Below, one piece after another: positions 1,380-53,537 of a stretch of DNA of 64,000 nucleotides. Origin of the DNA: Rhizophagus irregularis. Its lineage: Eukaryota > Glomeromycota > Glomeromycetes > Glomerales > Glomeraceae. The notes beneath the pieces are model-generated. The model made no database searches and was not told the origin of the DNA. It worked only from the letters and a program-made list of their open reading frames with translations. The position numbers and the translations under genes were made by a program. Positions within the stretch are counted from its first letter, which is position 1. Each line of letters begins with the position of its first letter. The DNA lies in the NCBI RefSeq assembly GCF_026210795.1, contig NC_089444.1, positions 296,001 to 360,000 of the forward strand, read 5' to 3'.

Positions 1380-2080
1380 ATGACAATTATTCATAAAATT
1401 ATGATAAAGGCTATTTTGATCTTATTCTCTATTCTAACATTTTTTATCATGCGAGCACAAGGAAAATACTTAACCACATTTACCATCGTCGCACATACAA
1501 CGGGTAATAATTTTTATCCTGAACCAAATTGTCTTACTGCCAAGGATGGAACATTTGTTGAATTACGTACGAGTCTTTTAATATTTATGTTTAATCCTTA
1601 CTCGTAAACGTTCTAACGTTCTAAAATTTTTACCTTTGAAAACAGTGTGGGTTGAAAATGGAAATAATACAATCACCACCAATGCGGGATCTTTTGGTGA
1701 TTATAATTGTAACCAGAGCTGTAAGTAATTCGTTAATATTATTTGATTTATGAGATAATTATCAAAATTATTATGTTAAATTTTTCTTTTTTTTATTTGA
1801 AGTTATATTGAACATTTTTAAGGAGAGAGAAAGAACAAACGATACATCAATTACAACGCCACAACTATTAAAATTTAATAACAATACTAAATTTAATTAT
1901 GAATTATATTACAAGTGTGATCTTGAGTAAGTGTTTTAATATTTTTTAAAACTAATAAGTAACTGGTAAGGTATTAATGTAATCTAACGTAACGTATTTT
2001 TTTTTTATAGAAAAATCATGATAATACTAATAAAAAAAACATATCCAAGAATCATCAATATATTAGTTTTTTATAAGTAA
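1380..2080 (+). CDS. small secreted protein, four exons, unknown function
   Basis: Exons 1380-1566, 1646-1720, 1803-1926 and 2011-2080 join in one frame of about 151 residues. The three introns (79, 82 and 84 nt) start GTACGA, GTAAGT and GTAAGT and end in AG; introns 1 and 3 contain a CTAAC branch-like motif before a pyrimidine run. The first 28 residues begin MTIIHKIMIKAILILFSILT and form a basic-hydrophobic signal peptide ending near AQG. The mature part has few cysteines, Thr/Asn-rich stretches and a Lys/Ile-rich tail. If intron 3 is retained, the protein stops at the TAA at 1928. No family was recognised. A signal peptide on a short protein is typical of candidate secreted effectors or wall proteins in mycorrhizal fungi, but the role is inference. 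Exon 4 is the least certain part. Confidence 0.6.
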
Positions 2081-2952
2081 AAATAAATGTTTAGCAAATT
2101 TAAAGACAAAATAATTAATGCATTTTTTTTTATGTAATCATTTTAATTTGATTCTAATTTATATTTAATAAAATATTTATTTATGTATTATGAGAAATAA
2201 AAATGTTAAATTAAAATAAATACTATCAAGATTATAATAATGTAAAGTTGATCCATATATTTTTTTTTGTATATTTATTTATAATAGAATTTATTTTCAT
2301 GTCTAAAAAATCTTTGAGTTCATTAAGTCGAAGCGAGGTAGAAATTGATTCAGTTGATCGAAAATTTGAGTAACATAATTTTATCAATAAACACATTAAA
2401 GAAAATGCGAATCATTTAAAATTTTTCGAAAATATTGTAATAGTGAAAAATAATAAAATGTTATTATCGCATACTTTTTCAACTGATAATTTTCTGAAAA
2501 AGTTACCGTATTAAATTATATATTAATAGGATATAGCATTTTGCGCTTTGCACAATTATTATTTTTTTTTTTTGCAAATTTACTCTCAAGAGGAGCAGCG
2601 AGCTTTTAAATTACGTATAAATACACAAATACCACTCGACCTGCAAATGTTTCCGATGAGTAGCTTATACGATTATAGTAATTGAGAAATGAAATTTAGT
2701 TATGAAAAGATAAGTTACAATTAATGGTATATCATAGTCACGTTCTGAGTGATCTGTGTAAAAATGACGTAAATATTTCATTTGTGTAACTGATTAATAC
2801 CTCCAAAATTATCACTATAAATTCTTATATATATATATATATGAATTCGGAAAAGTTTTTACAATTATATATACAGTATATCCTCAAACTTTCTCAAAAC
2901 TTCTCTCTCTCAAAAATACTTCTTTCTCTGAAAGTCTTTTTACTGCTTAACA
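2081..2952. other. intergenic with one 24-codon ORF
   Basis: Mostly featureless AT-rich DNA. An ATG at 2299 opens a 24-codon frame (MSKKSLSSLSRSEVEIDSVD...) that ends at a TAA overlapping a GTAACA donor-like site at 2370. It could be a first exon or relic, but no matching acceptor was identified. A short (TA)n run lies near 2828. Confidence 0.3.
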
Positions 2953-3919
2953 ATGAAATCAGTCAGCTGAGGTCGTTAAACAAATAGACGTTCTTGAGAG
3001 CTGGATCTAGACGACGAAGATATAAAGATAATTGAGAAAAATAAGGTCGCTAGTCAAGTCTTCGTTAATTTGAGCTCCATATAACCTTCTCGGCGGACCA
3101 CTCAGATAATCTACACAAAGTTTATAATATTTATGAAAAAGACCATGTACATCCCTCATTTAAGTTAGAGATCAGAGTTTTACGAAAGTTATTTGCGAAG
3201 GAGCTCCCAGCTCAATTTCGTCTAACAGAAATGGAGGAATAATTAAAGGTAATATTATTTAGCATTAAGTAGAAAAAGAAAGCAGTCCGAGGATCGATTA
3301 TCTACACGAGCTGTGTGCTTGTTGAGTTGTTGGCGAACTGTATGTTTTGGCGGGATGTGTTCTCGTCTATGGTCAGATCATACTTCCGGAGAGATTTCGT
3401 ATCTCGTTGTACTTTAGTTCAAATACTTGCATGCTTGAGGGCGAAGTGCATCTTCGTAGGGTGGGCGCATCCTTATCCTGCTAAGAGTGTAACATCTCGG
3501 GCTATTTCACTGACTTGAACCTAGGAATAACTTGACATGTTTAGTATAATAACCATTTTTACAAACTAATATTTCCTCCCATCAGATGCAACAAATTCCA
3601 CGAATTGTCAAGAAGGTTTGTAAAAGAAGGATTACCAAAGCAATCAAATTACATGCCAAGAAAGATTATAAATAAAGAGTTGGAAATTGCCCAGGTGAAA
3701 TTTTTTATTTTTTCCTTTTTTTGGTGGTGGTACACTAAACTTACCTTCTGAATATTCTACTTCTAGGATACTGTAATTGTCAGAGAATATCACCGGATCA
3801 ATAAGCATAGTTATGATGATTATCATGATGCAAGCTCACAATTAATGAAGCACCATCTGGATAATACTAACATTGGCAATTCTAAAAAAGCAAGAGTTGT
3901 GAAGGATAGCCAGAAATAA
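2953..3919 (+). pseudogene. decayed spliced gene with intact-looking last two exons
   Basis: The 3' part looks coding. Exon 3586-3694 (CNKFHELSRRFVKEGLPKQS...) ends phase 0 at a GTGAAA donor, and exon 3767-3919, after a TTCTAG acceptor, gives 50 in-frame residues to TAA (DTVIVREYHRINKHSYDDYH...). Upstream, 2953-3258 has recognisable coding fragments such as DDEDIKIIEKNKVASQVFV and LRKLFAKELPAQFRLTEMEE. They lie in different frames and are broken by stops, including a TAA immediately after LTEMEE and a shift near 3005. Between them (about 3260-3585) lies a GC-richer block that may be an intron or an insertion. The family was not recognised; the style matches repetitive Rhizophagus genes. Best read as a degraded copy. 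Confidence 0.4.
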
Positions 3920-5131
3920 CTGCATCAATTACTATACTGTACGTGTTACATAAAATTGATTTTTCGATACTGAATCATATGTAATTAGTTTTAGCATTTG
4001 CGTTGACCGAAATAAAATAATGTTTAAACTGGAATTAATGGGATAAATCTCATAGTGCCGATGCTATTTTCATATTTATCACATGATTCTGTGAAGGCTA
4101 TTCACGCGTTTCTTCTCTTAATCATAGATTATTTATAAGGTAATGATTTTAGGACAGAATACATGATAATCGAAAATATTTTTTACCGGGTGCACGGGTT
4201 TACTGCACCACATTACTGCGCAATTAGTGGACACGGGTGTCCGGATTTTCCTTTTTGAGTAGTTATGCATAAATAAAAAGTATTAGTTTGTTCGCATAGT
4301 GAACTTTGTCCTTTTTTAACTACATCTGCGAAATTGATATCAATGCTGGTCAAAGGCGCTGTGCATGTAAATTAATCTACAATGCATGTGAATAAAAAAC
4401 TCCTCCCTTGATCTCTCCCTCGTTAGTATAAATAACCTCGGGATGATATTTTTTTTATAACTTATCTCCAGATCATCTGATGGCTTCAATCATGAATCTG
4501 AAAATCTCGTGACTGAAATTTCAGCCCGGGCCCCTGCCAAAATTATTCTAAATTTTTTTTTATCTTCACACCACAATTCGAAGAACAACTGAAGGAGGAG
4601 CAATTTTGACGAGCCCGGACAGACTCTATCAGAAAAAAATAATATTTTTTTTTTCGCATGTGCATTTACTCGTAATCATTTTCCTGAATTTCCGTTAGCA
4701 AACAGCTTAAAAGAAGCTTGTTGATATAAATTATAAATTTTGTATAATATTAGGCTGTCCGCTTCATTTTTTAACGTAAAATTTAAAGTTTTATAAAAAA
4801 AAAAAATGAATTTTAAAAATTGCAAAAAATATTTATTTATGATGGTGAATGTTACCAATGTTGCCAAGTGGACAATTTGTTAACACGCAAATCTTTATTT
4901 TAATTAATATGTCCATTTTGAACCAAAATAGTATGATCACGTGATAGGCGCAGTTAAGATCGCTTTAAAAAATAGTAAGTCGATCATTTGGCTTGGTGAT
5001 ACAGATTTTATTATTAACCAAATTAAGTTAATTTAAAATTATTTTTGAACATAAATCAAAATGTCAATCATTATGAATTATGAAAATTTTTTGTCTCTTG
5101 TTACAAAAATTTTTGCACTCTAGACTTCATA
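3920..5131. other. intergenic, nothing recognised
   Basis: No exon or repeat family was recognised. The region upstream of 5132 contains an in-frame TGA near 5080 that limits the start of the downstream gene. Confidence 0.45.
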
Positions 5132-8100
5132 ATGCTTTTCCGTTTTTTAGCTTATTTATACTACTTAGGAAAAGAAGTTAAAATGTGTACAATATTTAAT
5201 TTGGCCAACCATTACTACTATGGATTTATAGTAGAAAAGGATTTGGAGATGGCCTTTTACTATTATCAAAAAGCAGCTGAAAGTGATCATGTTGACGCAA
5301 TGTTTTTTTTAGCCTGTCATTATTACATTGGGGATGAGATAGAGAAGGATTTGGAGAAAGCCTTTCACTGGTGGCAAAAAGCAGCAGAAAATGATCATGT
5401 TCAAGCAATGTTCATTTTAGCTAATAATTATTACAGTGGAAAGGAAATAGAAAAGGATTTGGGTAAGGCTTTTTATTGGTATCAAAAAGCAGCAGAAAAT
5501 GATCATGTTGACGCAATGTTTATTTTAGCTGGTTATTATTACAGTGGAGAGGAAATAGAAAAGGATTTGGAAAAGGCTTTTCATTGGTATCAAAAAGCAG
5601 CAGAAAATGATCATGTTGACGCAATGTTTATTTTGGCCTGTCATTATTTCAGTGGAAAGGAAATAGAAAAGGATTTGAAAAAGGCTTTTCATTGGTGTCA
5701 AAAAGCAGCAGAAAGAGATCTTGTTGATGCAATGTATTTTTTAGCCTGTAATTATTACATTAGGAAGGAAATAGAGGAGGATTTGGAGAAAGCCTTTCAC
5801 TGGTATCAAAAAGCAGCAGAAAGTGATCATGTTGACGCAATGTTTATTTTAGCTGGTTACTATTACAGTGGAGAGGAAGTAGAAAAGGATTTGGAAAAGG
5901 CTTTTCATTGGTATCAAAAAGCAGCAGAAAATGATCATGTTAACGCAATGTTTATTTTGGCCTGTCATTATTATAGTGGAAAAGAAATAGAAAAGGATTT
6001 GGAAAAGGCTTTTCATTGGTATCAAAAAGCAGCAGAAAGAGATCATGTTGATGCAATGTATATTTTTGCCTGTCATTATTACAATGGAAAGGGGACAGAA
6101 AAGAACTTGGAGAAAGCCTTTTACTGGTATCAAAAAGCAGCAGAAAATGATCATATCGATGCAATGTTTAATTTGGCCCGTCATTATTACAGTGAAAAGG
6201 GATCAAAAAAGGATTTGGAGAAAGCCTTTTACTATTATCAAAAAGCAGCTGAAAGAAACCATGTTAATGCAATGTTTTGTGTAGCCCTTTGTTATAACAA
6301 TGGGAAGGGAGTGGAAAAGGATTTGGAGAAGGCCCTTTACTGGTATCAAAAAGCAGCAGAAAATGATCATGGTGATGCAATGTTTAGTCTGGCCAGTCAT
6401 TATTATATTGGAGAGGAGACAGAGAAGGATTCGGGGAAAGCCTTTTACTGGTTTCAAAAAGCGGCTGAAAGTGGAGATGAAAAGGCAATGTTATTTGTGG
6501 CCTTTTGTTATAATGATGGGGAGGGAGTGGAAAAGGATTTAGAGAAGTCTTTTTACTGGCATCAAAAAGCAGCAGAAGGTGGAGATGAAGATGCAATGTT
6601 TAGTGTAGCCTTTTGTTATGACAATGGGAAGGGGGTGAAAAAAGATTTGGAGAAGGCCCTTCACTGGTATCAAAAAGCAGCAGAAAGAGATCATGTTAAA
6701 GCAATGTTTTGTTTGGCCAATCATTATGACAGTGGGGAGGAAATGGAAAAGGATTTGGAGAAGTCCTTTCACTGGTATCAAAAAGCAGCTGAAAGAGATC
6801 ATGTTGATGCAATGTTTAATGTAGCCCTTTATTATAACAAAGGGAAGGGAGTGGAAAAGGATTTGGAGAAGGCTTTTCACTGGTATCAAAAAGCAGCTGA
6901 AAATGGACATGAAAGAGCAATGTTTAATTTGGCCGGCCATTATTATAGTAGGGAGGGAGCTGAAAAGGATTTGGAGAAAGCCTTTTACTGGTATCAAAAA
7001 ACAGCAGAAAATGGAGATAAAGATGCAATGTTTAATGTGGCATTTTGCTATAACAATGGGGAGGGAACAGAAAAAAATTTGGAGAAAGCCTTTCACTGGT
7101 ATAAAAAAGCAGCAGAAAGCGGTAATGAAAAGGCAATGAATAAATTAGTTAATCATTATAAAAATGGGGAGGGAATAGAAAAAAATTTGGAGAAGGCTTT
7201 TTATTGGTATCAAAAAACAGCAGAAGGTGAAAAGGTAATAAATAACTCAGTTGATATAAATTGGGATGGAACAGAGAAGGATTTTTATTGGTATCAAAAA
7301 ATACCAGCAATTAAGGAAATAAAATTCATTGGATTATGTAATGGATGCAAGCTACCATATACTGATTATCAATGGTGTCAGCAATGTAATCCTGAACAAT
7401 TTCAACAAAATTTTTCAAAGTGGACTAGTAAAAATGAATTTATTGATAAATTTATTCAAGATGCTCAACTAAATGCTAAAAATAGTTATGAAGTTTTGGA
7501 ATGGATACCTTACAATAAACTGTCAAATATTCATTATTATGATAAAGGAGGATTCAGTAAAATTTATAAAGCTATCTGGTTAGATGGACCTATTGATAGT
7601 TGGAATTTTAATGAACAACAATGGAATAGATGTAACTTTCAAACAGGATATGAAGTTGTTCTTAAAACACTATATAATTCGTCAAAAATAGATGATAAAT
7701 TTTTGAATGAGGTATAGTATTTATTTTTAATAGTGAATTATTATTTTTTTTTTTATGGCAAAATTATTAATTTTTTATAATTTATTTAGTGGAAACATCA
7801 CTATAACTGTCAGAAAAGATCATTTTCAAAATTTATTCAATTCTTTGGAATTACTCAAGATCCATATAACTTGAATTATGTAATAATAATGAGTTGTGCA
7901 AAAAAAGGAAATTTGAGAAAATGTTTATCTGATATAATTAAGTTTAAGTGGCAAGACAAGTTACAATTATTAAAAAAAATTATATTAGGACTTAAAGTAA
8001 TTCATGATTCAAATTTAACTCATGGTGATTTTCATGATGGTAATATTTTGATATCAGATGATTATGGTGAATTATTTATCATTGACTTAGGATTATGTAA

Positions 8101-8686
8101 ACCTGTAGATGATGATAAAAAGGATAATGAAGTTTATGGAGTTTTGCCTTATATGGCACCTGAAATATTAAGGTACACACCTTATACCCCTGCAAGTGAT
8201 ATTTACAGTTTGTCAATGATAATGTGGGAATTTACATCAGGTATTCCTCCATTTAATAATAGAACATATGATCATCATCTTATCTTGGATATTTGTGAAG
8301 GTGAACGCCCTCAAATTATGAGAGATGCTCCAGAATGTTATGTAAATTTAATGAAAAAATGTTGGGATTCAAATCCTTCCAATAGACCAACTATAACTGA
8401 GCTTGAATATAAAATATCTGAATGGATTAGATGTATTAGTGAATATTATATATATAACAAAGATGGGAATTATAAGGTTGCAGTACCTGATGTTGATATT
8501 GAATTAACAAATGATATGCTTGAATTTGCAAAAGCAAATAATCAAGAAGAAAATAAACAAGAAAAACCCAATATTTTTGTTATGCAATCTTATTTACAAG
8601 CAAATTATACAAGTCGCAAGTTTACTAAAATTACTGAAATTTTAGCTGAAGAAGATTCTAAATGTTTGGATGAATTTATGATTTAA
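5132..8686 (+). CDS. Sel1-like repeat protein with C-terminal protein kinase domain
   Basis: Two exons (5132-7711 and 7790-8686; 78-nt intron, GTATAG..TTTAG, phase 0) give about 1158 residues. Residues about 20-690 are roughly 19 Sel1-like repeats of 36 residues with the core AFHWYQKAAE, a solenoid used for protein interaction. A zinc-ribbon-like CxxC(x9)CxxC follows at residues 736-752. The kinase domain has a glycine loop (KGGFSKIYKAIW, about 806), the Lys of VVLK (845), the catalytic Asp of HGDFHDGNIL (940), DLG in place of DFG (959), and APE. HRD is HGD, but the essential Asp and Asn remain, so activity is plausible. A TGA lies upstream in frame and no earlier ATG exists; Met18 is an alternative start. 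The domain order matches the expanded signalling kinases of Rhizophagus; substrates are unknown. Confidence 0.93.
5190..7230 (+). repeat. 108-bp in-frame tandem repeat (Sel1 units)
   Basis: About 19 units of 108 bp (36 codons) encode the Sel1 solenoid. The units near 5410-6060 are the most alike at DNA level, suggesting recent expansion. The antisense frames stay open over long distances only as a shadow of this repeat. Confidence 0.9.
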
Positions 8687-19299: not shown

Positions 19300-19430
19300 G
19301 ATTAGTTAATTTTCATCTGTTTTAATATCTAAATAATTAAATATTAAATAAAATTAATTTCACATAAAAATAATTTGCAATATTAGTTCTTTTATATATC
19401 ATAGTACATACCTAATGACCCCAAATCCTT
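19300..19430 (-). repeat. duplicated 3' terminal exon/intron unit of the kinase gene
   Basis: The segment TCATTAG|GTATGT ... TTGCAAATTATTT ... AAACAG|ATGA.AAT occurs at 19600-19520 and again at 19415-19310. The second copy of the exon end is reached only after a TAA created by a (TA)n stretch that shifts the frame relative to an ancestral IIKDLGSL-like reading. Confidence 0.6.
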
Positions 19431-22400
19431 AATTATATATATAATCATTCAAATCTTCATCATTTACTAGCATTTCATTTGCTTTTTCATGAATTTCATT
19501 CAACTTTTTACTAGTATTCTCATCTGTTTTAATTAAATTAATTTCATATAAATAATTTGCAAGATTGATTTTTTACCTATTATATTAACATACCTAATGA
19601 CTTCATATCATCATTAATTATACAATCATCCAAATTTTCACTTTCAAGAATTTCATTCAATTTTTTACTAGTAAAATCAAGTAAGCGACTAGTATAACAT
19701 GCTTTAGGATGAGATTCAGTAACAAGATTATTATGCCCAATTGGTGCATTTATAAATTCCGCAATATTGCATTTTAATTCTTCATTAATATTTTCAATTT
19801 TATCAGGAGGAATGATCCATTCTTTAATAATATTACACACTTCTTCAGATGATGGCCTTTTTAATGGATCTTCATTCCAACATTTTTTCATTAAATTCAC
19901 ATAACATTGTGGAGTATTTTCAATAATTTCAGGACGTTCACCTTTACAAATACTTAAACTAAGTTGAAGATCATGTGCTCTATTATTAAATGGTGGTGTT
20001 CCAGATGTAAACTCCCACATAATCATAGAAAAACTATATATATCACTAGCTGGAGTATAAGATTTGCCTCTTAAAACTTCAGGTGCCATAAATGGAATAA
20101 CACCATAAATATCATATTTTTTCAAAAACGATTTTATAGGTTGACATAATCCTAAATCACTAATATAAATTTTATCCTTATTCTTTTCAATATTATTTAA
20201 AATATTACCATCATGAAAATCACAATGAATAAGTTTTTTTTTATGTATCTTACTAAGTCCAGAAATAATTTCGTACAACATAAATAATTTTTGATTCCAA
20301 TTACTTTTGACTAATCTTGTTAAATTTTCTCTTAAATTACCTTTATTTGCATAATACATTACTATTATATACTTTGAAGTATTTGGATCTTCTGTGAATC
20401 CATAAATATTTATAATATCATATGAACTTAAAACACTTGTATGATATTCCCACTATAAAAAATAATAATAATTATTAATACAAATAAATTAAAATTGAAA
20501 TTAAAAATAGAAAATAATATACTATTATACTTCTTTTAAAAACTCATTTAAATTTTCATTTAAATTCTTGGGACATTTAAGAATTACTTCTTCATCATCT
20601 TCATTTCCATTATTCTTTAACCAAATAGCTCTGTATATAGTACCAAATCCTCCTTCATTAAGATATTTAATATTTTTAAATTTGTTATAAGGAATCCATT
20701 TTAATCCATTTTTAAGAATAAAATCATCTATAATCATATTTCCACTTTTTCCAAATCTATAAATTTAAATAATTAAAATTATATGATAGATTATATTATA
20801 ATTTACACAAAATAAATTATTACTTACTCTAAAATTTTAAATAAGAATTAAATGTAATATAAGCCTTAATTTTTGGATAAATACATACTATAATAACCTA
20901 TGATTTACAACTTACCGACTAAAGTAACAGATATTTTTCAAATGAAAGAATTCAGTTAACAAATTAATATTATATAATATATATAAGAATAGATCCTTAC
21001 AATCTAGATCATAATTTTTTAAATGAAGAAATTAGTTAGTTTAAATTATATGTAAATATTATAACAATAAGTAATAATAGAAATAAATAAATAACTTACT
21101 CCCTATTTATTAATAATTTTTTAAATGAAGAAATTAGTTAGTTTAAATTATATGTAAATATTATAACAATAAGTAATAATAGAAATAAATAAATAACTTA
21201 CTCCCTATTTATTAATAATTTTTTAAATGAAGAAATTAGTTAGTTTAAATTATATGTAAATATTATAACAATAAGTAATAATAGAAATAAATAAATAACT
21301 TACTCCCTATTTATTAATAATTTTTTAAATGAAGAAATTAGTTAGTTTAAATTATATGTAAATATTATAACAATAAGTAATAATAGAATTAAATAAACAA
21401 CTTATAACTTACGATCTATTAAATAAAGAAATTAGTTAGTTTAAATTATATGTAAATATTATAACAATAAGATAATAGAATTATATAAATAACTTACCAT
21501 CTATGAAATAATTTTTTAAATGAAGAAATTAGTTAGTTTAAATTATATGTAAATATTATAACAATAAGTAATAATAGAATTAAATAAACAAATTATGACT
21601 TACCAACTAAATTAAATTATAAAATAATTTTAAATTAGTTAGTTTAAATTATATGTAAATATTATAACAATAAGTAATAATAGAATTAAATAAATAACTT
21701 ACACCCTATATTATTTAATAATTTTTTAAATAAAGAAATTAGTTAGTTTAAATTATATGTAAATATTATAACAATAAGTAATAATAGAATTAAATAAATA
21801 ACTTATAACTTACGATCTATTAAATAAAGAAATTAGTTAAATTATATGTAGATATTATAACAATAAGTAATAATAGAATTATATAAATAACTTACCATCT
21901 ATGAAATAATTTTTTAAATAAAGAAGTTAGTTAGTTTAAATTATATGTAAATATTATAACAATAAGTAATAATAGAATTAAATAAATAACTTACACCCTA
22001 TATTATTTAATAATTTTTTAAATAAAGAAATTAGTTAGTTTAAATTATATGTAAATATTATAACAATAAGTAATAATAGAATTAAATAAATAACTTATAA
22101 CTTACGATCTATTAAATAAAGAAATTAGTTAAATTATATGTAAATATTATAACAATAAGTAATAATAGAATTATATAAATAACTTACCATCTATGAAATA
22201 ATTTTTTAAATAAAGAAGTTAGTTAGTTTAAATTATATGTAAATATTATAACAATAAGTAATAATAGAATTAAATAAACAAATTATGACTTACCAACTAA
22301 ATTAAATTATAAAATAATTTTAAATTAGTTAGTTTAAATTATATGTAAATATTATAACAATAAGTAATAATAGAATTAAATAAATAACTTACACCCTATA

Positions 22401-24278
22401 TTATTTAATAATTTTTTAAATAAAGAAATTAGTTAGTTTAAATTATATGTAAATATTATAACAATAAGTAATAATAGAATTATATAAATAACTTACTCCC
22501 TATATTATTTAATAATTTTTTAAATAAAGAAATTAGTTAGTTTAAATTATATGTAAATATCATAACAATAAGTAATAAATAAACAACTTACGAACTATTT
22601 AATAATTTTTTAATAAAGAAATTAGTTAGTTTAAATTATATAAATATTATAATTATAAGTAATAATAGAATTAAATAAACAAATTATGACTTACCAACTA
22701 AATTAAATTATAAAATAATTTTAAATTAGTTAGTTTAAATTATATGTAAATATTATAACAATAATAATAATAGAATTATATAAATAACTTACCATCTATG
22801 AAATAATTTTTTAAATAAAGAAGTTAGTTAGTTTAAATTATATGTAACTATTATAACAATAAGTAATAATAGAATTATATAAATAACTTACCAGCTATGA
22901 AATAATTTTTTAAATAAAGAAGTTAGTTAGTTTAAATTATATGTAAATATTATAACAATAAGTAATAATAGAATTAAATAAACAAATTATGACTTACCAA
23001 CTAAATTAAATTATAAAATAATTTTAAATTAGTTAGTTTAAATTATATGTAAATATTATAACAATAAGTAATAATAGAATTAAATAAACAAATTATGACT
23101 TACCAACTAAATTAAATTATTAAATTAGTTAGTTTAAATTATATGTAAATATTATAACAATAAGTAATAATAGAATTAAAATAAATAACTTACACCCTAT
23201 ATTATTTAATAATTTTTTAAATAAAGAAATTAGTTAGTTTAAATTATATAAATATTATAACAATAAGTAATAATAGAATTAAATAAATAACTTACTCCCT
23301 ATATTATATAATAATTTTTAAATAGTAAAGAAATTAGTTAGTTTAAATTTTTTGTAAATATTATAACAATAAGTAATAATAGATAGAATTAAATAAATAA
23401 CTTACTCCCTATTTAATAATTTTTTAATAAAGAAATTAGTTAGTTTAAATTATATGTAAATATTATAACAATAAGCAATAATAGAATTAAATAAATAACT
23501 TACACCCTATATTATTTAATAATTTTTTTAAATAAAGAAATTAGTATATAAATAATATAAATATAGATATAACTCACACCCTGTAGTATTATTAGTTAGA
23601 TATAATGATATAATGATTATATATATTACTCACAATCTAGTTATTTAAATTAAGAATATAATTAGTTGAATTATGAACAAAATAAATATAATATACAGTA
23701 TACATTGTAACTTACCATCTGTAATAATATAATTAATTATTAATAGTTATTTAAACAAAGAATTTAGTTATTTGAATGTTATATAGAAAAAATAAAGTAA
23801 AGGACTAAAGATTTAAATAATTAATAACTTACTAACTACAGTATTATTAATCATTAAATAAATTATTTAGTTATATGGAATACAATAAAGGTAATGAGTA
23901 ATTCATTATATAACTTACAAGCTAATAAATATTTAATATAATTTTTATATAATATAGTTAGCCTAAATTATATTTCATATTATATGAGGTATAATTATAG
24001 ATAGTATTTGAATTGTCTATAAATAAAAACTTAATACTTCAGCTTGTTTGATATACCTTTAGATTCCTTGGCGTCTCTTCCTTCAAATTCCTCAATACTA
24101 CTTTCAGATTCTTCAGTGTCACTTCCCTCAAATTCTCCAGTGCCACTTTCTTCAAGTTCTTCTATATTACTGAAAACTAGTTTTGTTATATTGCAAATTT
24201 GGTTTAATAATTTGAATAATTCTAATTTATATTATTATTCATGTTATATGTTTTACCTTTACCAACACGTTGGTCCAT
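19429..24278 (-). CDS. protein kinase gene with 32 tandem 3-nt microexons and a 1-nt exon
   Basis: Proposed exons: 24278-24257, 24161-24057, 32 microexons of 3 nt (first 23921-23919, last 20918-20916), one 1-nt exon (20828), 20756-20531, 20452-19594 and 19523-19429. They sum to 1404 nt, a 467-residue frame with no internal stop. The N-terminus MDQRVGKE is followed by an acidic region (GTGEFEGSDTEESESSIEEF). The microexons encode about 33 residues, including FDDR repeats. The kinase domain has NEGGFGTIYRAIW (108-120), VILK, HCDFHDGNIL (catalytic Asp about 228), DLG (249) and APE, so it is plausibly active. Splicing 24057 directly to 20756 would give a stop within ten codons. The kinase exons are secure (0.95); the upstream exons and microexons rest on splice motifs and phase. 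The simplest alternative is a start at the ATG at 20737 with no upstream exons. Confidence 0.7.
20828..23921 (-). repeat. intron-like tandem array with embedded microexons
   Basis: About 32 units of 56-117 bp (mode about 99-106) share ATAATATTTACATATAATTT, then AACTAACTAATTT (a CTAAC branch-like site), a T/A run, a TAG or CAG acceptor, three variable bases, and GTAAGT (29 units) or GTGAGT/GTAAGG (3 units). From 5' to 3' on the minus strand the three bases include CTT, TTA, ATG, ATT, GGT, GGA, TTG, CTG, TTC, ATC and TCG. The triplet differs between units while the flanking splice motifs do not. Subarrays repeat as TTG-ATG-ATC-GGT blocks, showing duplication of several units at once. Confidence 0.92.
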
Positions 24279-24547
24279 TACTATATCAAAATTGGAAAAG
24301 ATAAAGTAAATATCTTTTTTTAATTTTTTAAACGTCTTTTAAATACCTTTATTAGTATGAATAAATATGGTAATAATATTTATGCAAAATACATTATGTG
24401 CAAAAGCATTAATCACAAGTACAAGCATTGCATTATTGCACATGACAAATTTTGCACAACCGGAATGACGGAATGTATATCAATTATTACAAAATCGCAG
24501 CAACTGGTTAATCATTTTGTCTTAGGTAATTATTAAGTACCAATGAA
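24279..24547. other. intergenic between kinase gene start and retroelement array
   Basis: AT-rich upstream region of the minus-strand kinase gene. No promoter element is distinguishable. Contains AACTGGTTAATCATTTTGT, similar to sequence in the duplicated locus at 17495. Confidence 0.35.
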
Positions 24548-26490
24548 ATGATTATCATTCATTTTTATTTTTATTTTTATTAATGGGTTCCAGTTAGAAA
24601 CCTAACATGGACGCGATTATAAGTAGAAAATTACATATAAGTCAAAATTGACAAAAATACTAACTAAACTACACGCGAAAATAATCTACTCAAACCGGTG
24701 GGCAATTAACAGGAAGAAGGTATAATGTGAGATACTAAAATTAGACCCCACGACACAAAAACCCAGAAATGATTATCATTCATTTTTATTTTTATTTTTA
24801 TTAATGGGTTCCAGTTAGAAACCTAACATGGACGCGATTATAAGTAGAAAATTACATATAAGTCAAAATTGACAAAAATACTAACTAAACTACACGCAAA
24901 AATAATCTACTCAAACCGGTGGGCAATTAACAGGAAGAAGGTATAATGTGAGATACTAAAATTAGACCCCACGACACAAAAACCCAGATAACGCCACTGC
25001 CTCCCATACTCTCGCCTAGGTAAACCTAAGTTTTGGTAAGTTGAAGCCCGTACCCCGCAGATTATCAAACTGAACCGCCAGCCCCTGGTTGGAAAAATCC
25101 CCCCACACTGGTCGATAAAAATAAATTCTCCAAGTGACTATATTACCAGAGTTAACAAACTACCTAAGAGTAAACTAAAGGGGAACTTTTTAGTGTCATG
25201 CAATCCCCGAAAGGACACCCACCTCATTTCGAACGATCCCTCCAATCTAAACTAAACCGCAGTAAAAACTCATGATAGTCCAAACATGTGCCACCTTGAC
25301 CTCACCTGACCAAAAACTGATCACCAAGATCTGCACCCTCCTTAAATTACACCCAACTCTCTCAAAAGAAAAGATCTACAAACCACCTGATGTCGATCAA
25401 TTTTGGGATACCCCCCTACCCCCCAGAAAAACTCCAAAAAGCAGAAGGCAAAAAAGAAAGACGAGAAAAATTCACCAAAAAAATAAGAAAAATTCATAAC
25501 CCTAGGAAAACCAACCCAAAGGAGTAAAAACCTAGGTAAAGAGGGAAATTTCACCAAACTATCACCAGGAACAACCCCTTATTATTAAGAAAGCGAACTT
25601 TCACCACTGAGCGAAATGGAAATTTCTTCCTTCCAGCTTGGAATCTTCAACCTTATAACCAAAGTCGTTCAAAACATATGAACAAGTGCCGCTGGACCCA
25701 ATAGAGACAAGTAGCGGAAACCAAGTTGGTATTTTAACCAGGTATTTAGGGCAACTTCTTTAAATACGAGTATTTTAAAATGAGTGAAATATTATTTCCA
25801 TTAAGAAAAGTGAGAGAAAGGAGAGAGAGTTCTTATTTTCTCAATGATTATCATTCATTTTTATTTTTATTTTTATTAATGGGTTCCAGTTAGAAACCTA
25901 ACATGGACGCGATTATAAGTAGAAAATTACATATAAGTCAAAATTGACAAAAATACTAACTAAACTACACGCAAAAATAATCTACTCAAACCGGTGGGCA
26001 ATTAACAGGAAGAAGGTATAATGTGAGATACTAAAATTAGACCCCACGACACAAAAACCCAGATAACGCCACTGCCTCCCATACTCTCGCCTAGGTAAAC
26101 CTAAGTTTTGGTAAGTTGAAGCCCGTACCCCGCAGATTATCAAACTGAACCGCCAGCCCCTGGTTGGAAAAATCCCCCCACACTGGTCGATAAAAATAAA
26201 TTCTCCAAGTGACTATATTACCAGAGTTAACAAACTACCTAAGAGTAAACTAAAGGGGAACTTTTTAGTGTCATGCAATCCCCGAAAGGACACCCACCTC
26301 ATTTCGAACGATCCCTCCAATCTAAACTAAACCGCAGTAAAAACTCATGATAGTCCAAACATGTGCCACCTTGACCTCACCTGACCAAAAACTGATCACC
26401 AAGATCTGCACCCTCCTTAAATTACACCCAACTCTCTCAAAAGAAAAGATCTACAAACCACCTGATGTCGATCAATGATTATCATTCATT
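24548..26490 (-). mobile_element. three tandem insertions of one non-LTR-like element
   Basis: Copies at 24564-24768 (205 bp), 24785-25843 (1059 bp) and 25860-26474 (615 bp) share the same left end and differ in how far they extend right. Each is bounded by the same 16-bp sequence ATGATTATCATTCATT (24548, 24769, 25844, 26475). Read on the minus strand, the constant end is a 3' tail of (TAAAAA)n type and the variable ends are 5' truncations, as for LINE or SINE retroposition. The sequence is markedly more GC-rich than its surroundings. No reverse transcriptase was recognised in the longest copy. Confidence 0.8.
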
Positions 26491-31545: not shown

Positions 31546-33850
31546 TAGCCAAATAAAATCAACTTTCTGCAGGATTGAAACTACTTGAATATTAACTATC
31601 ATGTATATAGGTGTAATACTTGAGAAAAAGTTGCATTTTTCTTGATGATATTAACTCTCTTTTCTGTTTTTTAATTTAGAGCGTATTATTTCCATTTTGG
31701 ACAAATGAAATCGACTTTATTTATTAATTGAAAGTTGTTCAGGCAGGTTGATACCACTTGAATATTAATTTTCATGAATGTAGGTGTAGTGTTTAAAGAA
31801 AATTGCATTTTTCTTGATGATATTAACTCTCTTTTCTGTTTTTTAATTTAGAACGTAATATCTCCACTTTAGTCAAATGAAATCAACTTCCTTTATTAAT
31901 TGAAAGTTGTTCAGGCAGGTTGAAACCACTTGAATATTAATTTTCATAAATGTAGGTTTAGTACTTGATGAAATTGCATTTTTCTTGATGATATTAACTC
32001 TCTTCTCTGTTTTCTAATTTAGAGCGTAATATCACCACTTTAGTCAATGAAATCAACTTTCTTTATTAATTGAAAGTTGTTCAGGCAGGTTGAAACCACT
32101 TGAATATTAATTTTCATGAATGTAGGTGTAGTGTTTAAAGAAAATTGCATTTTTCTTGATGATATTAACTCTCTTTTCTGTTTTTTAATTTAGAACGTAA
32201 TATCTCCACTTTAGTCAAATGAAATCAACTTCCTTTATTAATTGAAAGTTGTTCAGGCGGGTTGAAACTACTTGAATATTAATTTTCATAAATGTAGGTA
32301 TAGTACTTGATGAAATTGCATTTTTCTTGATGATATTAACTCTTCTCTGTTTTCTAATTTAAAGCGTAATATCACCACTTTAGTCAAATGAAATCAACTT
32401 TCTTTATTAATTGAAAGTTGTTCAGGCAGGTTGAAACCACTTGAATATTAATTTTCATGAATGTAGGTGTAGTGTTTAAAGAAAATTGCATTTTTCTTGA
32501 TGATATTAACTCTCTTTTCTGTTTTTTAATTTAGAACGTAATATCTCCACTTTAGTCAAATGAAATCAACTTTCTTTATTAATTGAAAGTTGTTCAGGCG
32601 GGTTGAAACTACTTGAATATTAATTTTCATAAATGTAGGTATAGTACTTGATGAAATTGCATTTTTCTTGATGATATTAACTCTCTTCTCTGTTTTCTAA
32701 TTTAGAGCGTAATATCACCACTTTAGTCAAATGAAATCAACTTTCTTTATTAATTGAAAGTTGTTCAGGCATGTTGAAACTACTTGAATATTAATTATCA
32801 TGAATATAGGTGTAATACTTGAGAAAAAGTTGCATTTTTCTTAACGATATTAACCCTTTTCTTTATTTTTTAATTTAGAGCGTAATATCTCCACTTTAGT
32901 CAAATGAAATCAACTTCCTTTATTAATTGAAAGTTGTTCAGGCGGGTTGAAACTACTTGAATATTAATTTTCATAAATGTAGGTATAGTACTTGGAGAAA
33001 ATTGCATTTTTCTTGATGATATTAACTCTCTTCTCTGTTTTCTAATTTAGAGCGTAATATCACCACTTTAGTCAAATGAAATCAACTTTCTTTATTAATT
33101 GAAAGTTGTTCAGGCAGGTTGAAACCACTTGAATATTAATTTTCATGAATGTAGGTATAGTGTTTAAAGAAAATTGCATTTTTCTTGATGATATTAACTC
33201 TCTTTTCTGTTTTTTAATTTAGAACGTAATATCTCCACTTTAGTCAAATGAAATCAACTTTCTTTATTAATTGAATGTTGTTCAGGCGGGTTGAAACTAC
33301 TTGAATATTAATTTTCATAAATGTAGGTATAGTACTTGATGAAATTGCATTTTTCTTGATGATATTAACTCTTCTCTGTTTTCTAATTTAGAGCGTATTA
33401 TCACCACTTTAGTCAAATGAAATCAACTTTCTTTATTAATTAAAAGTTGTTTAGGCATGTTGAAACTACTTGAATATTAATTATCATGAATATAGGTGTA
33501 ATACTTGAGAAAAAGTTGCATTTTTCTTAACGATATTAACCCTTTTCTTTATTTTTTAATTTAGAGCGTAATATCTCCACTTTAGTCAAATGAAATCAAC
33601 TTCCTTTATTAATTGAAAGTTGTTCAGGCGGGTTGAAACTACTTGAATATTAATTTTCATAAATGTAGGTATAGTACTTGGAGAAAATTGCATTTTTCTT
33701 GATGATATTAACTCTCTTCTCTGTTTTCTAATTTAGAATATAATATCTCCATTTTGACCAAATGAAATCCTTCCTTTTATTAATTGAAAGTTGTTCAGGC
33801 GGGTTGAAACTACTTGAATATTAATTTTCATGAATGTAAGTGAGTACTTG
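31546..33850 (+). repeat. about 172-bp satellite with higher-order repeats
   Basis: About 14 monomers, each with GAAATCAACTTTCTTTATTA, ATTGAAAGTTGTTCAGGC and GCATTTTTCTTGATGATATT. Variants differ at several linked sites: a (AACGTAATATCTCC, GTGTTTAAAG), b (AGCGTAATATCACC, TACTTGATG) and c (ATCATGAATATAGGTGTAAT, TTAACGATATTAACCC). From 31735 the order runs a b a b, and from 32418 it runs a b c b' a b c b', a roughly 690-bp four-monomer higher-order unit repeated twice. Both edges decay into unique AT-rich DNA. Confidence 0.92.
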
Positions 33851-50089: not shown

Positions 50090-50500
50090 AAATATATAGT
50101 AATTCGAATGCTGATGGTCTCTTGAGTGGATCTGCACCTAAACATTTTTGAGCATAAAGAGTGAGAGTCTCCTCAGAGGGTTTGAAAATAATAAATGAAC
50201 GGCCATGTTGTCTATTATATATAATAAGGAAGATTACAAATTGATAGTATCCACATTATTATACCAAAACTATAAATACCAGAAACTTAAGTTGGCTCAC
50301 TTCCTTTAAAAATTTCAGGGGCAACAAATGGCACAATCTCAAAAATTCCTTCTGAATTTGTGTTAAATAATGGTTCCTTTGCGTCCAATATGCATGTTTC
50401 TATCGCATTCAACTAAAATATTACCTTCGTGTAAATGACCATGAATAAGACCATATTCATGAATTTTATATATCCCTGACATGATTGATCATATAAGAGT
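50090..50500 (-). pseudogene. relic of a protein kinase domain
   Basis: Minus strand: IMSGIYKIHEYGLIHGHLHE followed by GNILVE (catalytic loop, HRD replaced by HGH, so the Asp is lost) near 50390-50490; SEGIFEIVPFVAPEIFKGSE around APE near 50310-50370; and the conserved C-terminal tail near 50100-50150. Intervening parts are shortened and out of frame. Paralogous to 18700-18966 and part of the same duplicated segment. Confidence 0.8.
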
Positions 50501-50573
50501 TATTAAGTACTATTTATTTAAAATTTAAATTAATTAATTAATTATTATATTAAAATCTTATAATTTTATTTAG

Positions 50574-53537
50574 AGTAAGTATAATTAATATTATTTAATA
50601 TTTGAATTTTTAATTGATTTTATTTTAAATTTTTAATTTTTAATATAATATAATTTTTATATTTAAGATTTGGTACTAGTGGAAGTGAAATTGTGGATCA
50701 ATTTATTTCTAAAAAAAAATTAAAATGGACTCCTTATAATAAATTTAAAAATATTGAATATCTTGGGTTTGGTACTATCTGCTATATATAAAGCTAAATA
50801 TAATAGTATTGAAGTAATTCTTAAATATTTTAATGATTTTAATAATTCAGATGAAAGTTTAAATAAATTTTTAAATGAAGTATGATTAATTATTATTTTT
50901 TTTATTTAATATTATAATTTATTTATACTAATTAACTAAATATTATTTTTTTATAGTGGAAAATTATTAATTCAGATGAAATTATTAAAATATATGGATT
51001 TACAAAAGATCCAGATACTTTGAATTATGTGTTAATAATGGAGTATGCAAATAAGGGTAGTTTAAAAAGTTGTTTAACAGAAATAACAAAAAATTGGGAA
51101 CAAAAATTATTTTATTTATATCAAATTATTAAGGGTTTTAATGATATTCATAAAAATGATCTTATTCATTATAACTTTCATAATGGTAATATTTTATGTA
51201 ACAAATATGAAAAAGACATATGTAAAATTTTTATTAGTGATTATTTAGGATTATTTCAACTTGCAAGATCTTTTTTAAAAGAAAATGATATCTATGGAGT
51301 TTTACCATTTATAGCACCTGAAATTTTAAGAGGTCAACCTTATACTCAAGATAGCGATATATATAGTTTTTCTATAATTATGTGGGAATTTACATCTAAA
51401 ATTCCACCTTTAATGATAAAGCACATAATCTCCAACTTGCTTTAAGTATTTGTAAAGGTGAACGTCCTGAAGTTATTGAAAATACTCCACAATGTTATAT
51501 AGATTTAATGAAAAAATGCTGGGATGAGGATCCATTAAAAAGGCCATCTTCTAAAGAAGTTTTGAATATTATTAAAAATTGGATTTTCCATCCTTCAAAT
51601 AAGAAAATTAAAGATATCAATAAAGAATTAAAAAGCAATATTACTGAATTTATAAATGCACCAATTGAGTATAATAACCTTATTGTAGAATCTCATCCAA
51701 AAGCATGCTGTACAAGTCATTTACTTGATTTTACTAGTAAAGAATTAAATGAAATTCTAGAAGGTTTTCAAGGATTTCTTGAATTAAAACAAAATTATCA
51801 AGGTTCTCAAAATGAATTACAAAATATTCAAATGGAATTAATTAATTTACAACAAAACTCAACTTTACAAAATGAAGAATTTGCAAAAAAAGAAAGTACT
51901 TTACAAATCCAAATTACAAACCTGCAAAGTGAAAAGCAAGCTTTAGATGGCAAGCTGACTGAACAGTTAAAGCAAATCAGTCAGCTAAATCAAGAAAAAA
52001 ATAATCTGCAAGATAAATTAGTCCAAACAGAAACTATTATTCAAGAGTTAAAATTTCAGCAAGATCAATTTAAAAATCAATTAAATCAATCTCAAATTGG
52101 TTATAAACAAATAGAAGAAGAAAATCTTAAATTAGAAAAGATTGCTGAAACTTATTATCAAAGTTCTCAAAATGAGTTAATTAATTTGCAACAAGGAAAT
52201 TCTCAATTTAAAAATCAATTAATTCAAATAAAGGAAGAAAATCTTAACTTAGAAAATGAATTAGATGATTTACAACAAAAGAATTTTAAATTTGAGCAAA
52301 ATAATCAAAATCTGAGGCTTAATTTAGCTATACAAATTAAAGAATTTGCAGAAAAAGAAAATGTTTTCCAAACCCAAATTATTGACCTGCAAAATGAAAA
52401 GCAATCCTTATTAGTTGATAATTTAACTAAACAATTGGAACAAAATAAACAAATTAATCAGCAAGTTCAAATTCAAGTTAGTCAGTTAAAGCAAGAAAAA
52501 TTTGATTTACAAAAAAAATTAACTCAAACAGAAGATAATATTCAAGAATTAAAATCTCAGCAAGAAAGCTTAACTGAACAAAAAGAACAATTAAAAAACA
52601 AACTAAGTCAGTCCCAAGTTAATTGTGAACAGATAGAACAAGAAAAGATCAGGTTGCGTAATATGGTAAAAGGTCTTTCACAAGAACAAAAGCTTACAAT
52701 TAAATTGAAAACCAAGTTAGAAAAAGAAATTGCTCAATTAGAACAAAAATTAATTATTGAAGAACAAATCAAAATGCGATTAACTCAAGCTTTACAGATA
52801 AAAGATGATAAAATAAATGAATTAGAAAAGAAACTTGTTACTCTTGATCAAGAACGTATTAAGCAGCTAAAAGACAAAGAAAAAGAATTGAGTAAAATTG
52901 AAAAGGAATTAATAAATAAATTAACTAGTGGAGAAAATACTAAGGAAATTCATAAAGAAAAAGAAGCTAAACAAAAAGAGATGAATGAACTCCAACAAGA
53001 ATTATCAAGAATTTCAGCTTCTTATAATGCCAATAGAAAAAAACGGATTCTCAATCAAGTCAATAATTTTCTGAAAGTTAAGGGTGATTTCCTAACTTTA
53101 CAAGAAGAAGCTATTAAAAAACTACAAAATTGTTGTAATCATCTAGAAAGTTCCATTAATAAGGAAAAAGATACTATTGGTTCTATTGAAGATATAAAAA
53201 CCTCTAAATTTATTGACAAATATACTAAAGAATTTCAAAGTATTCTTGTAAAATATAATGATGGATTATTAGAGCTGAACAAAAATTATTATTCCTTAAA
53301 GAATGTTGTTCAGGAAAATAAAGAGTTGGAAGTTTACCTCATGATTGAAATATTCTTAGGTTGAATTCTTTCAATCTTGATAAATATAAAATTTTTAAAT
53401 TTGCTACTAATTCTCAGGAAGGAACCAGAATTCAATTAAATTCTAATATGATGAAAGAAGATATAAATTCATTAAGAAAGAATTTGAATGAATTAAACCA
53501 AAAAAAAAATGAATTAATAAATTTAGCAACAGTTTAA
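50574..53537 (+). pseudogene. kinase-like gene with long coiled coil, several lesions
   Basis: A 1-nt exon (A at 50574, between TTTAG and GTAAGT) and exons 50668-50879 and 50957-53537 match the layout of the minus-strand kinase gene. Lesions: the glycine loop is shortened by 9 nt and followed by a 7-nt insertion causing TAA near 50790; one T is missing at about 51410 (CCACCTTTAATG), shifting frame within the C-lobe; and there is a shift near 53345 before the last 58 codons. HRD is HYN (catalytic Asp to Asn) and DLG reads DYLG, so even restored it would be a pseudokinase. After the kinase, about 51760-53050 encodes a Gln/Glu/Lys/Leu-rich coiled coil of over 400 residues (LNQEKNNLQDKLVQTE type), still open. 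Upstream exons are missing. Expression as the 618-codon coiled-coil ORF (51508-53364) cannot be excluded. Confidence 0.75.

Follow-up and report, generated by a model that had tools for sequence, protein, structure and literature searches.

Arrays of one-codon exons upstream of the kinase domain in a large gene family of Rhizophagus irregularis, as predicted from genome sequence

Can part of a protein be encoded one codon at a time, by dozens of exons that are each only three nucleotides (nt) long? The question is raised by a 64,000-nt stretch of the Rhizophagus irregularis genome (assembly GCF_026210795.1, contig NC_089444.1, positions 296,001 to 360,000 of the forward strand), which we call the window and number from its first letter. 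An initial annotation had proposed that a kinase gene on its minus strand contains 32 consecutive 3-nt microexons followed by a 1-nt exon. Our analysis of the window and of related loci indicates that this is very probably correct, that the one-codon exons are constitutively included, and that they produce a fast-changing N-terminal segment in the members of a large kinase family.

A scan for splice-site patterns on the minus strand found 32 YAG/NNN/GTRAG sites and one AG/A/GTAAG site between positions 23921 and 20828. By comparison, 500 dinucleotide-preserving shuffles of the array region gave a mean of 0.03 and a maximum of 1 of the 3-nt sites, and the same pattern occurs once on the rest of the minus strand of the window and nowhere on its plus strand. 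The introns that separate the 3-nt exons are 53–114 nt long. When all exons were joined, a gene of 38 exons was obtained, with 1404 nt including the stop codon and encoding 467 amino acids; its reading frame opens with the ATG at 24278 and runs uninterrupted as far as the stop codon at 19429. The frame arithmetic is simple. With its 22 nt, exon 1 ends in phase 1; the phase does not change through the 32 codon-sized exons, after which the 1-nt exon provides the base still lacking. Dropping the whole array with the 1-nt exon breaks the frame, as the initial annotation had predicted, and leads to early stops, yet the frame stays intact if only the 32 three-base exons are dropped and the 1-nt exon is retained. 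The other structural claims made there were also borne out, namely the acceptor, three bases and GTAAGT-type donor of each unit, the intron lengths, the phase logic, the stop-free spliced frame, and the FDDR-type peptide repeats ahead of the kinase domain, which are present in the translated array (RRFDDRYDRFDDRRR).

A Pfam profile search matched residues 104–357 of the predicted protein to PF07714 (6e-42), with the array-encoded segment lying outside the match. Only kinase families were found, PF07714 scoring best; neither a NACHT-ANK NLR nor a WD40/STAND domain was among the Pfam matches. The kinase motifs GGFGTIY, VILK, HCDFHDGN and DLG are all present, and the encoded protein is probably an active kinase. 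Three motif patterns (glycine loop, catalytic loop and DLG) were matched in 28 of the 35 loci described below, and at least one was missed in the other seven (L012, L018, L024, L026, L029, L032 and L036), in some owing to the ends of the fetched stretch; L036 has N at the position of the catalytic Asp. The lysine pattern was not counted, as it matched the wrong place in many loci.

The array is not confined to one unusual gene. All genomic counts given here refer to a single genome of 146.7 Mb in 32 contigs, in which the DNA of the window array has at least 396 matches. We fetched 36 regions: 20 by array similarity, 12 by similarity to the kinase exon, two by both and two by array pattern only. 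The 20 array-similarity regions, chosen for their likeness to the window array, comprise 19 arrays, since two regions are contiguous, and the same kinase exon lies downstream of the array in 19 of 19. Among the 12 regions picked by kinase exon (L021–L032, some of them also chosen for a long open frame), 11 carry arrays, and L032 retains only the last unit and the 1-nt exon. Arrays also precede family kinases in the remaining four loci, including the two picked by pattern alone. Every locus fetched thus belongs to one kinase family. Twenty array places occur among the first 100 matches listed; 13 of them have a listed kinase exon downstream and two more were fetched with one. A strict signature, the 1-nt exon A followed by the kinase exon, has 81 genomic occurrences, against 0 for the reversed control. 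The arrays therefore belong to a large gene family of kinases. Passages of a published study name expansions of kinases and of Sel1 in R. irregularis (PMC6123716).

Parsing of 34 loci yielded 1270 units, with 11–79 units per locus (median 37) and a median intron length of 99 nt; unit numbers are minima for L022, L028, L030, L031 and L033, which are cut by the fetched stretch. L026, which contains the ends of two arrays, was counted as one locus. L035, with 26 sites before the kinase, entered none of the tests; L036 entered the pairwise-lag, peptide, substitution, unit and per-locus counts and neither the strict-site stop comparison nor the flank comparison. The 1-nt exon is present in 35 of 35 loci and is A in 32 of them and T, G and C in one each. 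Most of the apparent 1-nt exons in a first scan were rejected as overlap artefacts of AG/AGA/GT-type sites. Start exons differ among members, and an acidic second exon is present or absent; read by eye in 19 of 22 paralogous loci, the start exon has 13, 19 or 22 nt and always leaves phase 1 (in the other three it is cut off). Wherever the array start lies within the fetched stretch, the array peptides begin with forms like FDDWW, LNDWW or WYD. Their last residues are FEFGK, or close to it, in 31 of 34 loci; L015, L030 and L033 are the exceptions, since the 1-nt exon there is not A and was missed by the script.

Exons that are never spliced together and translated would be free to form TAA, TAG or TGA where they meet. 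In phase 1, each junction codon takes one base from the end of an exon and two from the start of the exon after it. With strict splice sites, one stop was found in 973 adjacent pairs (34 loci, 33 of which contribute), located in L012, whereas permuting exon order within arrays predicts 28.8 stops (standard deviation 4.2; minimum 11 in 2000 permutations). Including weaker splice sites, one stop occurs in 1193 junctions between neighbours (lag 1), where 36.5 are expected. The deficit is specific to this arrangement: joining each exon to the next but one (lag 2) gives 29 stops in 1121 pairs against 34.0 expected, lags 3–8 are at chance or slightly above, and reversing the exon order gives 44 stops in 1193 junctions. 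Counted by locus, a stop junction is seen in 1 of 34 at lag 1 and in 15–19 of 34 at lags 2–6; counted by distinct exon-pair types, stops are made by 1 of 371 at lag 1 and by 18 to 25 at lags 2–6. Collapsing repeated pairs leaves one stop in 697 against 23.5 expected (TAG 1 against 14.9, TAA 0 against 5.4, TGA 0 against 3.2). TAG thus stands at 0.07 of its expectation, compared with 0.80 for CAG, 1.14 for GAG and 1.36 for AAG. Phase 2 would contain 143 stops in the 973 pairs. Of 13 gap-free loci, some completed with weaker sites, 12 including the window are stop-free.

Avoidance at lag 1 and not at longer lags means that selection sees the full, ordered chain. This strongly supports the conclusion that every 3-nt exon is normally included, in genomic order. 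Transcripts that regularly lack single exons do not seem to be what selection has favoured, although rare isoforms are possible. The chain of one-codon exons proposed for the window, in the same phase, is thereby supported across the family, both by adjacent junctions that are free of stops in 33 of 34 loci and by the 1-nt exon. The initial annotation had also raised a recursive-splicing ladder; the stop avoidance contradicts any version of it that would remove the codons from the mRNA.

What do these exons encode, and how do they change? The AG and GTRAG bases were fixed by the search and are uninformative, so that the informative flanks are the columns beyond them. Comparing units within arrays (2960 pairs with flanks at most 12% different), the three exon bases differ by 38, 19 and 38% and the flanks by 3.7%. 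Between arrays (46546 pairs), the corresponding values are 54, 25 and 60% against 5.1%. The least variable exon base is the middle one, which is codon position 3. Even where 140 flanking bases are identical, the exons are unlike in 80% of 397 pairs between arrays, and in 22% of 404 pairs within arrays. In the most alike genes, L008 and the joined locus L67 (97.7% identical over 600 bases from the kinase start), the array peptides share little but their ends.

In 22 closer loci (231 pairs), the intron within the kinase gene body is 93.8% identical and the array introns are 96.3% identical; over all 385 locus pairs the values are 92.5 and 94.2% (array introns were sampled as up to 12 random pairs of near-equal length per locus pair). 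Fourfold sites in 23 loci are 7.3 and 10.5% diverged. Since both the ordinary intron and the fourfold sites have diverged little, neutral change looks small and the change in the exons far larger. Special homogenisation of the array introns, which we considered, is not needed, as the ordinary kinase intron is nearly as alike between loci.

Single-base differences between exons overwhelmingly alter the protein. Among 1006 within-array pairs with at most 2 mismatches in 120 flanking bases, the exons are equal in 605 and differ at one base in 190, at two in 96 and at three in 115. Scored in both directions, the 190 one-base differences comprise 354 nonsynonymous, 2 synonymous and 24 stop-generating changes, where the opportunity for nonsynonymous to synonymous change is 3.94 to 1. 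If each type is allowed only one count per array, there are 37 nonsynonymous, 1 synonymous and 4 stop changes, a nonsynonymous to synonymous (N/S) ratio of 9.4. Hypervariability limited to the exon bases is the main feature of the arrays, one that was out of reach of the initial annotation, and it suggests that the segment is under diversifying selection.

Several observations weigh against this reading and temper its individual lines of evidence. The data come from one genome only. Units are kin by duplication, so that pair counts are not independent, and for this reason the collapsed and per-locus counts are the safer ones; the collapsed N/S ratio itself falls to 4.7 with looser flanks, and is 3.0 and 2.0 between arrays. 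Phase 0 likewise has few stops (3 in 973), and phase 1 is singled out because the order tests and the flanking exons point to it, not because of the stop count alone. Some sense codons also depart from the permutation, with GTT at 0.59, CAT at 0.65, GGG at 0.68 and TAT at 0.75 of expectation and TGG at 1.51, TTT at 1.52 and GAT at 1.36. Conserved array ends and the duplication of blocks would be expected to cause such departures, but they make the permutation an imperfect null, and the lag comparison therefore carries more weight. The array of L012 does contain an in-frame stop, and damaged units occur, some with an exon length of 0, 2 or 4 nt and others in which AG or GT has been lost. In 21 of 34 loci the parser left at least one gap unfilled. 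Units of this sort would have to be bypassed unless the copy is dead; five further apparent stops (L010, L028, L030 twice and L031) span unfilled gaps. Finally, the constancy of exon length is weak evidence. When one unit motif was searched genome-wide with 0–9 bases permitted between the splice sites, 1105 of 1122 matches had exactly 3, as did 561 of 566 anchored units (99.1%), but intron stretches of comparable size are nearly as constant, with 87–99% at the modal length.

How might such an array work and grow? Each unit of about 100 nt would be an ordinary intron plus exactly three exon bases. With all introns removed and the exons joined in order, the array would contribute some 10 to 80 residues between the start of the protein and the kinase domain. 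The introns would be recognised singly and probably excised one after another, given that 3 nt of exon leave hardly any room for two splicing complexes simultaneously. Units may be gained and lost by unequal exchange between the near-identical introns, a process that would always be frame-neutral. Repeated peptide blocks, for example in L022 and L033, imply duplications of several units at once, and together with the identically flanked units within arrays they support the earlier suggestion that the protein grows as an intron and its codon are duplicated. Selection would favour new codons while the introns stay alike. The resulting segment probably forms the partner- or ligand-recognising N-terminal part of the kinase, as recognition is a usual reason for such a pattern in fungi, judging by passages on the hnwd genes (PMC2873952).

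A broader interpretation is possible, and we put it forward tentatively. The approximately 80 kinases of this symbiotic fungus (81 by signature, with arrays at 35 loci) might carry a sensing segment that is varied codon by codon, and together constitute a germline diversity system for recognition of self, partner or pathogen. Introns would then take the place of protein repeats as the scaffold for recombination, and exchange within and between genes would generate new specificities in frame.

Five other readings of the same arrays compete with constitutive inclusion of diversifying codons. The strongest, which we nevertheless regard as unlikely, is near-neutral growth, in which units merely lengthen a disordered linker and selection acts only against stops and frame breaks. 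It would suffice to explain the stop avoidance, and it agrees with the wide range of array lengths, with the position of the segment outside the Pfam kinase match and with a collapsed N/S ratio between arrays of just 2–3. Under neutrality, though, the exons should match the introns, yet they vary about five to ten times more, and the differences within arrays nearly all change an amino acid.

Somewhat less likely still is that alternative splicing is central, as proposed for the Tuber NLR genes discussed below, with each gene yielding many isoforms. Skipping of one codon is frame-safe by design, the Tuber genes set a precedent, and units with weaker donors (GTAAAT, GTACGT or GCAAGT) could be skipped. 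However, the joins that skipping would create, from each exon to the next but one, hardly avoid stops, and the donor is GTAAGT in 1139 of 1270 units. In L010 (reverse strand, ~1917–6386), a GC-donor unit, TTG/GCAAGT, is present in at least six copies within one array, and this GC-AG intron seems to have been copied together with its codon.

A mutational mechanism aimed at the exon bases, acting for instance at splice junctions or during transcription, is very improbable. It would account for the focus of change on three bases, and for the 115 of 1006 close within-array pairs that differ at all three. Untargeted hypermutation would strike the three bases equally, but no more than 4 of 929 inner units have C at codon position 3, even though replacing T by C at that position never alters the residue, and lone changes at this position make up 8 of the 380 scored effects.

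We give even less credence to the view that a single long intron, or DNA upstream of the gene, harbours an AT-rich satellite of which AG/NNN/GT is simply a part, translation starting from the ATG at 20737. Tandem repetition alone could conserve the motifs, and stretches of intron within the units do keep their length nearly as the exon does. A satellite has no cause to avoid stops that would form only when units some 100 nt apart are read in one particular order, or to be followed by a 1-nt exon in every locus checked, and its three exon bases should not be far more variable than their neighbours; moreover, coding similarity (FGKSGN) extends upstream of 20737 in the window and in 19 other loci. 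Equally remote is repeated insertion of mobile introns (introner-like elements) into an older continuous coding stretch: it would explain alike introns beside unlike exons, and 5 of the 20 array places among the first 100 matches listed are neither kinase-linked nor fetched and could have other hosts, but insertion would not leave exactly 3 bases every time, exon types travel with particular flanks, 78% of the 404 identically flanked pairs within arrays have identical exons, and all fetched loci come from one kinase family.

Serial inclusion of diversifying one-codon exons thus remains the reading we favour, and already at the level of sequence the evidence for serial one-codon splicing on a family scale is strong. 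If it is true, very many one-codon exons are spliced accurately in a single genome, which makes these genes an extreme test of the serial splicing of minimal exons; ordinary gene models would tend to miss the N-terminal parts of a large kinase family; and introns can serve as the scaffold of exchange from which hypervariable proteins are built. The kinases would offer an experimental system both for serial splicing of tiny exons and for intron-scaffolded variability.

The exons of the window gene, all on the minus strand, are as follows in the joined model. Exon 1, with the start codon (24257–24278), encodes MDQRVGK with its last base split off. Exon 2 (24057–24161) encodes the acidic repeat segment EELEESGTGEFEGSD..., which is missing in some paralogues; its 5' border was our choice, and an acceptor 3 nt further on fits equally. 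The first eight 3-nt exons are CTT (23919–23921), TTA (23833–23835), ATG (23716–23718), ATT (23634–23636), GGT (23578–23580), GGT (23504–23506), GGA (23406–23408) and GGA (23296–23298). They are followed by GGT (23194–23196), TTG (23104–23106), TTG (22998–23000), CTG (22892–22894), ATG (22793–22795), TTG (22695–22697), TTC (22592–22594) and GGA (22497–22499). Exons 17–24 of the series are GGT (22393–22395), TTG (22294–22296), ATG (22188–22190), ATC (22106–22108), GGT (21995–21997), ATG (21896–21898), ATC (21814–21816) and GGT (21703–21705), and the last eight are TTG (21604–21606), ATG (21498–21500), ATC (21413–21415), GGA (21304–21306), GGA (21202–21204), GGA (21100–21102), ATT (21001–21003) and TCG (20916–20918). 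The 1-nt exon A lies at 20828. Kinase exon 1 (20531–20756) encodes FGKSGN...IPYNKF...GGFGTIY...VILK, kinase exon 2 (19594–20452) encodes HCDFHDGN, DLG and the remainder of the domain and continues past it, and the last exon, with the stop codon, spans 19429–19523, its splice sites having been picked by eye.

Not every such kinase in the window has an array, which is thus no general feature of this group. In a more distant kinase the corresponding place is continuous coding sequence (NFSKWTSKN) with no intron; an alignment by eye places the final microexon-encoded residues opposite this uninterrupted stretch of the relative. An 18.5-copy tandem array of 108 bp at 5232–8242 on the plus strand, which by eye resembles Sel1 repeats, leads into a member of the wider kinase family whose coding is continuous where the microexon family carries its array. 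A second, diverged member of the kinase family at ~50560–51397 on the plus strand (50669) keeps the 1-nt exon and the kinase exons. Upstream of it, back to 46.8 kb, a relaxed pattern found no 3-nt unit on the plus strand, only scattered sites that form no array, and this copy looks as if it had been beheaded. Beside it, on the minus strand (50251–50485), lies an inverted kinase fragment with a stop.

Further features were noted along the way. In kinase exon 1 of the 23 closer loci, second codon positions are 8.5% diverged and fourfold sites 7.3%, so that the start of the kinase may itself be weakly constrained or diversifying. The joint array of L007 and L006 (G000:C7:2566500-2580500) is interrupted by a 3.2-kb stretch free of units. 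In the window, a direct duplication of 221 bp (24545–24988; 99% identical) lies ~270 bp upstream of the start codon, and a 172-bp tandem repeat of ~13 copies occupies 31569–33846.

Chains of short exons are known from other organisms. Passages on the micro-exon genes of Schistosoma describe chains of short, mostly frame-keeping exons that yield variable, secreted proteins, with 10–20 exons per gene, mostly of 15 bp and ranging over 3–81 bp according to the abstract or 6–81 bp according to the text, and introns of up to ~5 kb (PMC10526429). The kinase arrays differ in having exons of 3 and 1 nt and introns with a median of 99 nt. The aphid bicycle genes are not known to have exons as short as 3 nt. 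As portrayed in parts of PMC9168663, they likewise evolve fast as a family and contain numerous tiny exons, nearly all in one phase, and a relative has more than 100 microexons; there the phase is 2 and the products are putative gall effectors. For single exons, the plant genes APC11 and VPS55 offer a parallel, with a conserved, RNA-confirmed 1-nt exon and a GTRAGT donor, although microexons are described singly in the relevant passages and do not terminate a 3-nt array (PMC8831610).

With respect to variability, a comparable case is provided by the hnwd WD-repeat genes of Podospora anserina, in which, according to excerpts from PMC2873952, highly alike repeats are exchanged within and between genes and four codons per repeat are under diversifying selection. 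The kinase arrays match this type of pattern, uniform repeats with diversified codons, although for them selection is suggested by the pattern only. The conserved scaffold of hnwd, as far as those excerpts go, is a protein repeat, WD40, whereas here it is the intron, which is spliced away and leaves the variable codons.

Tuber melanosporum belongs to a different fungal phylum. In passages of four papers its NACHT-ANK (nank) NLR genes are said to have alternatively spliced exons of 3 bp or codon size, put variously at dozens, tens or multiple per gene (PMC9815663, PMC10197012, PMC4986451 and PMC3689799, citing Iotti et al. 2012). The initial annotation knew of no described chain of dozens of one-codon exons; by these accounts the Tuber mini-exon genes precede the present case, and the kinase array is therefore not a categorically new structure. 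Both are fungal multigene families with dozens of codon-sized exons (here 32, and 11–79 in 34 loci, as counted in genomic sequence), and in Tuber these exons have been proposed to diversify a recognition region. A kinase array of one-codon exons was not described among the open-access papers listed on microexons, mini-exons and kinase expansion, nor is the contrast of alike introns and unlike codons described in the passages found on Tuber. Judged by those passages, the Tuber genes are NLRs with the exons in a C-terminal recognition region and alternative splicing proposed, whereas the genes described here are kinases with the array N-terminal to the kinase domain and full inclusion indicated. 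Relative to what these sources report of Tuber, then, the kinase arrays are set apart by the gene family, the position of the array, its probable full inclusion and the combination of alike introns with unlike codons.

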